From NCBI GenBank assembly GCA_018713435.1, contig DVOS01000022.1, forward strand, positions 35,882 through 99,881: a DNA stretch of 64,000 bases, read 5' to 3'. The notes beneath the pieces were generated by a model. The model searched no databases and was not told the DNA's origin. It saw only the letters and a program-made list of their open reading frames with translations. Made by a program: the position numbers and the translations under genes. Source of the DNA: Candidatus Merdiplasma excrementigallinarum (GTDB taxonomy: Bacteria > Bacillota > Clostridia > Lachnospirales > Lachnospiraceae). Below are positions 15,897 through 55,814 of the stretch, piece by piece. The number at the start of each line of letters is the position of its first letter. Position 1 is the first letter of the stretch.

Positions 15897-16018
15897 TGTG
15901 CATTCCTCCTGTATGATCTTTATTGTAAATCCTGTTTCTTCTATTGTACCAGTTCAGCGCCGGCCTGACCAGTGAAACCCTGTCATTTTAACAGATTTCA
16001 CCGAATCAAAAAAGGAAT

Positions 16019-16176
16019 GTTACAAAAAGATTTCATTGCTTCCGGTACAGCCGGTGTTCACCTTGTCCTATCGACATCTGTCCGCAGTAAGCGGAATAAT
16101 CCGCCTGCTGCGGAACATCTGTCTCGGACATGTGTACACCGGCTGTACCGGAAGCATATGTACTCTTTTTTGTAAC
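16019..16176. repeat. Hairpin repeat family 1, copy 1 (88-bp core 16053..16140 plus copy-specific inverted outer arms)
   Basis: Core ggtgttcaccttgtcc...cggaacatctgtctcggacatgtgtacacc shared with copies at 48281 and 55652; outer arms gcttccggtacagcc/ggctgtaccggaagc are perfectly complementary. Confidence 0.9.
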
Positions 16177-16246
16177 TTTCCCTCACATTTATGATAGAAC
16201 GAGGGGGCTGCTTCATCATGAATTACATGATTTTGCAGCCCCCTCG
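16154..16246 (+). repeat. Dispersed 93-bp repeat family 2, copy A
   Basis: gcatatgtactctttttt...cgagggggctgcttcatcatgaattacatgattttgcagccccctcg; reverse-complement partner at 27817..27909. Confidence 0.9.
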
Positions 16247-27814: not shown

Positions 27815-27816
27815 AC

Positions 27817-27909
27817 CGAGGGTGCTGCAAAATCATGAAATTCATGATGAAGCAGCACCCTCGTTCTGCCATACACGTGAGGGAAAGTTGCCAAAAAGAG
27901 TACATATGC
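27817..27909 (-). repeat. Dispersed 93-bp repeat family 2, copy B
   Basis: Reverse complement aligns to 16154..16246 at about 84/93 positions by hand; contains cgagggtgctgc...gcagcaccctcg hairpin. Confidence 0.9.
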
Positions 27910-27932
27910 TCTGCGCTATAGCCTTCTGTCTT

Positions 27933-48237: not shown

Positions 48238-48261
48238 TAAAACAGAATAACGCCAAGATAC

Positions 48262-48392
48262 AAAAAGCTTCCTGACACCCGGTGTTCACCTTGTCCTCCT
48301 GACAGCTGTCCGCACAGGTCGGAATCATCCGCCCTGTACGGAACATCTGTCTCGGACATGTGTACACCTGGGTGTACAGGAAGCTTTCTTTT
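48262..48392. repeat. Hairpin repeat family 1, copy 2 (88-bp core 48281..48368)
   Basis: Core matches copies 1 and 3; outer arms agcttcctgacaccc / gggtgtacaggaagct complementary. Confidence 0.9.
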
Positions 48393-48485
48393 ATCTTCCG
48401 CGTTAACTGCTTTATGACTCCGCCCTGCTGCGGCATCGGCAAAACTGCCGGCAGCGCCAAAGCCGTCCGGCTGCCCGCAGCGGCT

Positions 48486-51791: not shown

Positions 51792-51854
51792 GGAAATAAA
51801 AAGGGCAGATACTTTCGCACCCACCCAAAGAATCCATCTTACGTTACATTCTTC

Positions 51855-52017
51855 GATAGCGCTCCATCTCATCGATGGCAGTCACATGATTATTCACCCT
51901 GTGCCCAAGCATACAGGTTCAGGCTCTGTATCCTTTCGGCGTTTTCCCCTTTCCCTGGCCTTCCGCTGTACCTGAATACATCCGGTCAATTACTCATGAA
52001 ACACGCAACCTCTATCT
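51855..52017 (-). ncRNA. Lysine riboswitch (L-box) upstream of dapA-dapB-lysC
   Basis: Minus strand AGATAGAGGTTGCG...ATGAGTA...AAGGCCAGGGAAAGGGGAAAACGCCGAAAG...TGCTTGGGCACAGGG...GACTGCCA...GCTATC matches L-box conserved blocks in order. Confidence 0.93.
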
Positions 52018-52066
52018 AATTAAAATAACTATATCATCCCGGTAAATCCTTGTCAACCGCTTTGGA

Positions 52067-55589: not shown

Positions 55590-55610
55590 AAATCATCATA
55601 AATAAAATAG

Positions 55611-55783
55611 AAACTGCCGTTTCGACACGTTTCTGGCATTTCCGAACATCCGGTGTTCACTTTGTCCTTTCGACATCTGTCCGCACAGATCGGATGTCTC
55701 CGCTCTGTACGGAACATCTGTCTCGGACATGTGTACACCTGGATGTCCCGGAAACCGCCAGAAATTCTCTGCGGCAGTTTTTT
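55611..55783. repeat. Hairpin repeat family 1, copy 3 (88-bp core 55652..55739), fused into the typA terminator hairpin
   Basis: Core matches copies 1 and 2; outer aaactgccg / cggcagttttttt terminator stem plus intermediate complementary segments (tttctggc/gccagaaa; gaacatcc/ggatgtcc). Confidence 0.9.
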
Positions 55784-55814
55784 TATGTGATTTTTTTAAT
55801 ATGTCACATCTGCT

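Follow-up and report, generated by a model that had tools for sequence, protein, structure and literature searches.

What kind of element forms the same imperfect hairpin at three separate sites in one piece of a Lachnospiraceae genome, and does the paired change in its stem reflect selection on a folded RNA or single-stranded DNA? The window analysed here, a 64,000-nucleotide stretch from Candidatus Merdiplasma excrementigallinarum, carries three cores of 88 bp each, at positions 16053–16140, 48281–48368 and 55652–55739 (all + strand), exactly where the preliminary description had placed them. Its other observations on the core were found again on re-examination of the three copies, namely the palindrome, the terminal 30 nt cggaacatctgtctcggacatgtgtacacc that are identical in all three, the apical change (acagg/cctgt versus acaga/tctgt) and the cgga-NNNN-tccg tip. 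The extent of 88 bp is, however, too narrow, since the complementary flanks are part of the element. Copy 1 is a full hairpin element of ~168 bp at ~16014–16181 (+), in which the outer arms GGAATGTTACAAAAAG...CTTTTTTGTAACTTTCC flank the core; copy 2 with its paired arms spans ~48255–48397 (+), between convergent aminotransferase class IV and amino acid kinase/ACT (aspartokinase-type) genes; and copy 3 spans ~55610–55784 (+), between convergent typA/bipA and amidohydrolase genes, and has the locus-specific paired arms GAAACTGCCG...CGGCAGTTTTTTT. Each core forms the tip of a longer hairpin, roughly 140–175 nt in the window, whose outer arms also pair. Chance is excluded for the window copies by the fold of copy 1 as single-stranded DNA (z-score of –13.9 relative to shuffles) and by covariance-model matches for all three (E about 1e-30 to 1e-32). 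The window also contains a lysine riboswitch at 51849–52022 (–; Rfam RF00168, 100.7 bits).

We regard the element as a dispersed, non-autonomous palindromic repeat of ~170 bp, MITE/ERIC-like in character and with putative terminator and template-switching steps, and put the probability of this reading at roughly 60%; the family of dispersed hairpins has apparently not been described until now. The repeat would spread by transposition or copying, through an enzyme that recognises the imperfect tip, and would be kept or tolerated 3' of genes, where it may terminate transcription from both sides or protect mRNA 3' ends. Complementarity of the arms would be maintained largely by template switching, with one arm copied onto the other, and the mismatched tip would be held by selection.

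The host genome, a Lachnospiraceae draft of 2.07 Mb in 78 contigs (73% complete), contains 26 full-length cores including the three in the window. Shortened copies with a 34-nt core lack the tip (L027–L032), others are reduced further (L035, L036, L095 and L107), and partial copies occur at contig ends; the tip-less and reduced forms are what deletions at a palindrome tip would be expected to leave. One remnant without a core (L108) lies in the window at 27816–27910 (–) and consists of the right arm, a spacer and a companion hairpin, B. Hairpin B (GAGGGGGCTGC-ttcatcatgaattacatgatttt-GCAGCCCCCTC) is also found beside copy 1, at 16200–16246 (+), its second window copy being the one inside the remnant (27816–27860, –). 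Its loop ATCATGAATTTCATGAT is conserved while the stem changes, and there are 34 copies in the host genome; hairpin B comes after many copies of the element but not after every one, and since several B copies stand without it, B is probably a terminator-like repeat in its own right that accompanies the element at times.

Within the genus, a covariance model built from the host genome finds elements of this layout in 6 of 13 genomes, and a six-species model applied to 397 genomes of the family gives matches in six further Lachnospiraceae genera. In these large searches of the family and of Clostridia, eight candidates per genome were scored, so that copy counts there are at least those found. 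The records with the core comprise the named Candidatus Choladousia intestinipullorum, the others being uncultured Lachnospiraceae. Among 391 Clostridia genomes outside the family there is one marginal match (G513, E = 5.9e-4), which was rejected as likely chance, in a genome with 8% contamination. Carriage on plasmids or phages was also rejected, since the plasmid and phage collections searched gave no match to the element and the covariance model gave no support to 19 viral-contig matches to a short motif. As far as tested, the element is restricted to some Lachnospiraceae.

Homologues have in common an imperfect, conserved tip of 88–100 bp, in which the motifs TGTTC...GTACA and CGGA...TCCG recur, on a long and nearly perfect stem. 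The base-to-base length is 167–170 bp in 24 of the 30 copies whose ends (GGGGCTGYYGCA...TGCRRCAGCCCC and variants) could be recognised, including copies in another genus. The arms differ from locus to locus in three genomes (G006, G257 and G258), and in the first two of these they are locus-specific, near-perfect and 40–50 bp long. Two copies are unusual in their interior: the tip of L086 (G012:C106) is replaced by a different hairpin, GGGGCTGTTGCACAATATGCATATTGTGCAACGACCCC, and L155 (G132:C2:18844-19029) has an extra insertion of ~50 nt in the left internal loop, which includes the hairpin-like stretch GGGAAACTTCGTTTCC. In a 3.1-Mb relative (G008), the pattern GGGCTGYYGCAAAAT gives 177 half-sites compared with 1 for the control; they form a large terminator-like hairpin family with a base sequence common to the element.

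The preliminary description held that the hairpin is conserved and covaries, and this is borne out by an alignment of 44 copies from six species with 44 pairs. The observed 271 cells with double change compare with 102.6 ± 9.1 in shuffled alignments, none of 500 shuffles reaching the observed value, and with 54 to 171 in slid controls that keep the relatedness of the copies. Paired cells amount to 83.0% (70.3% shuffled), and 30 of the 44 pairs show double change (22.6 shuffled). A T·T mismatch at columns 28/111 persists in 37 of the 44 copies across species, and the same position is paired in two distant genera (L137 and L138).

The distribution of changes among closely related copies bears on how this covariation arose. 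In 15 near-identical copies of the host genome, the outer arms show 8 double changes that preserve Watson–Crick pairing and 6 one-sided changes, compared with 0 and 4, respectively, in the 23 core pairs. When short copies are included, there are 14 paired doubles versus about 1.4 expected from independent change, a crude expectation given that the copies are related by descent and that the register is off in a few arms. Several paired doubles are double transversions, and one copy (L030) has three pairs altered on both arms. At one locus in two sister species (L088 in G010, L055 in G012), the element is inverted relative to its flanks, with flank identities of 95% and 93% when swapped, and of 40% unswapped. 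Template switching between the arms of inverted repeats leads to arm homogenisation and spacer inversion (PMC8604942), and quasipalindrome mutation has been reported in E. coli (PMC7202029); the similar numbers of double and single changes in the outer arms and the inverted locus fit such arm-to-arm template switching. Thus, of the earlier suggestion of selection on an RNA or single-stranded DNA fold, the conserved and covarying hairpin stands, but covariation alone does not prove such selection. We infer that much of the covariation of the outer arms is mutational in origin. The core is likely still under selection, since specific mismatches persist across species, as with the T·T pair above; that the mismatched tip is held by selection is less secure.

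The gene context assigns the element a position at gene 3' ends. Among 54 copies with confident genes on both sides, 32 lie in convergent, 21 in tandem and 1 in divergent context, whereas the gene pairs of the window divide into 7, 39 and 7, respectively; the convergent share is 59% of copies versus 13% of window gene pairs (Fisher P = 8e-7), and the divergent context differs with P = 0.03. The genes were called with a simple codon-score caller and 40 loci without a confident gene on one side were excluded; a cruder set of ORFs called before had pointed the same way, with 34 copies in convergent, 27 in tandem and 6 in divergent context. The element lies a median of 28 nt from a neighbouring gene when the 3' end of that gene faces it, and 119 nt when the 5' end does.

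Outside the stem base the left flank is rich in A and the right flank in T, the second position being A in 77% on the left and T in 80% on the right, and the base with its A-tract, G/C stem and T-tract looks like a two-way intrinsic terminator. The element agrees with Rho-independent terminators in its location just 3' of stop codons, in the G/C stem flanked by A- and T-tracts and in possible two-way use, but differs from their short stem and small loop by a stem of ~80 bp, a conserved tip sequence and membership of one dispersed homologous family. The standard short-loop terminator pattern misses the element, such long hairpins not being covered by the simple scan. Judged from its position and flanks, the element probably doubles as a two-way terminator. 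It is not always the sole terminator of a gene, since in both G010 and G012 the orthologue of the gene beside copy 1 is followed by a native terminator of its own, AAAAAAGTCCTGC..GCAGGACTTTTTT, with a truncated element after it in G010 and none in G012. Terminator-like palindromic RNA candidates have been reported from human microbiomes, the illustrated HMP2 motifs being mainly from Bacteroidetes (PMC8040213); the comparison with these, one of layout, gives the same likenesses and differences.

An alternative that assigns the function to the transcript is a structured RNA, i.e., a 3'-UTR regulatory element or small RNA that was duplicated around the genome and whose covariation is kept by selection on the RNA fold. 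The strong between-species covariation within the tip agrees with this, as does an excess of G-U pairs in the core (58 cells, compared with 19 that have an A-C mismatch; counted as species-by-pair cases, 30 and 15), which points weakly to the + strand. Folding energies, however, point the opposite way in several copies, and in many the reverse complement folds equally well or better, which leaves the strand evidence for RNA weak and mixed. Nor is there a clear orientation bias, tandem copies running 13 with and 8 against the genes, and several near-perfect, locus-specific arms of 40–50 bp are seemingly beyond the need of an RNA fold. The preliminary description had proposed a comparison with Rfam, and the element has no match there: in the search of the whole window no family scored above the gathering threshold at the element, and a relaxed threshold gave only matches far below it. 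We consider a structured RNA unlikely.

The reading as a dispersed palindromic repeat agrees with many homologous short intergenic copies, terminal inverted repeats and a near-constant length, all of which are MITE-like features. Sites occupied in one relative and empty in another were found at the copy-1 gene end, at L013 in G000, where the syntenic intergene of G006 is about 240 nt shorter, and at L049 in G012. In the orthologous region of G010 (L171), the whole unit of L049 including its base is absent, with nearly identical flanks; the genes on either side are divergent, and the empty allele forms no hairpin. L049 is the only clean junction, and no clear target duplication is seen there; the empty allele also lacks a 12-nt stretch at the right junction, which prevents a clean reading of any duplication, and the difference could alternatively be a deletion in G010. 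From the distribution of copies, we infer that the element is mobile.

The 127-bp enterobacterial ERIC/IRU sequences and further bacterial MITE-like repeats such as RUP and Correia/NEMIS (reviewed in PMC2229807) resemble the element in being short palindromes scattered between genes, with terminal inverted repeats, long stem-loops and no transposase of their own. The element differs from ERIC/IRU in host group and sequence, with no match in 20,395 E. coli records, in its strong bias to gene 3' ends, in arms that are locus-specific in some genomes and, compared with the TA target duplication of ERIC/IRU, in the absence of a clear duplication at its one clean junction. The families searched for an autonomous parent or transposase, Y1_Tnp and PF05598, gave none with ends that match.

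Mobile DNA has been tied to hairpin targets before, since IS1272 (IS1182 family) is reported to transpose by replacing stem-loops (PMC5678879). If the element likewise entered or displaced stem-loops already present, its locus-specific arms could derive from old terminators, and such an origin would agree with the arms that vary by locus in G006, G257 and G258, with the second hairpin at the apex of L086 and with L056, where a short terminator on the same GGGGCTGTCGCA base is present in the sister species. The empty site at L049, however, is no hairpin and lacks the whole unit including the base, and the constant length of ~170 bp across genera argues for one unit. PF05598 transposases are present in only 3 of 6 genomes and the ends of their loci do not match those of the element, for which reason an IS1182/IS1272 origin was rejected. 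Replacement of stem-loops is unlikely.

A novel mobile hairpin might spread without any known transposase that recognises hairpins, perhaps in the form of a folded single strand that primes copying from its 3' end; its arms would then be rewritten at each locus, and its mismatched tip would be recognised by the machinery. Such primed copying would yield the locus-specific yet near-perfect 40–50-bp arms of G006 and G257, but we consider it improbable.

REP/REPIN sequences are likewise repeated imperfect hairpins in extragenic space (PMC3116915, PMC8266576), and a domesticated REP-like system with a RAYT/Y1 (HUH) transposase as mobiliser would fit both the dispersed imperfect palindromes 3' of genes and the one Y1 transposase in the genome of the window. 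The element is much longer, however, and Y1_Tnp has no match in six copy-bearing genomes, several of them copy-rich (G008, G010, G132, G258, G323 and G336; drafts 88–99% complete), while the Y1 gene of G000 is of ordinary IS200 type with flanks unlike the element. A RAYT/IS200 origin was rejected on the last two grounds; the REP-like reading is largely refuted and highly improbable. An artefact of assembly or contamination, to which the 73% completeness of the draft and the copies ending at contig ends might point, is scarcely credible, since many copies are internal with distinct flanks and the family is also present in other genomes, several of them 97–99% complete.

The dispersed palindromic repeat, if correctly read, means that in common gut bacteria a hairpin family may supply or reshape gene ends. 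It also provides a clear natural case in which repeated palindromes covary strongly without selection on RNA having to be the cause, since in near-identical copies the outer arms show paired double changes about as often as one-sided ones, and this has a consequence for covariation-based searches for RNA genes.
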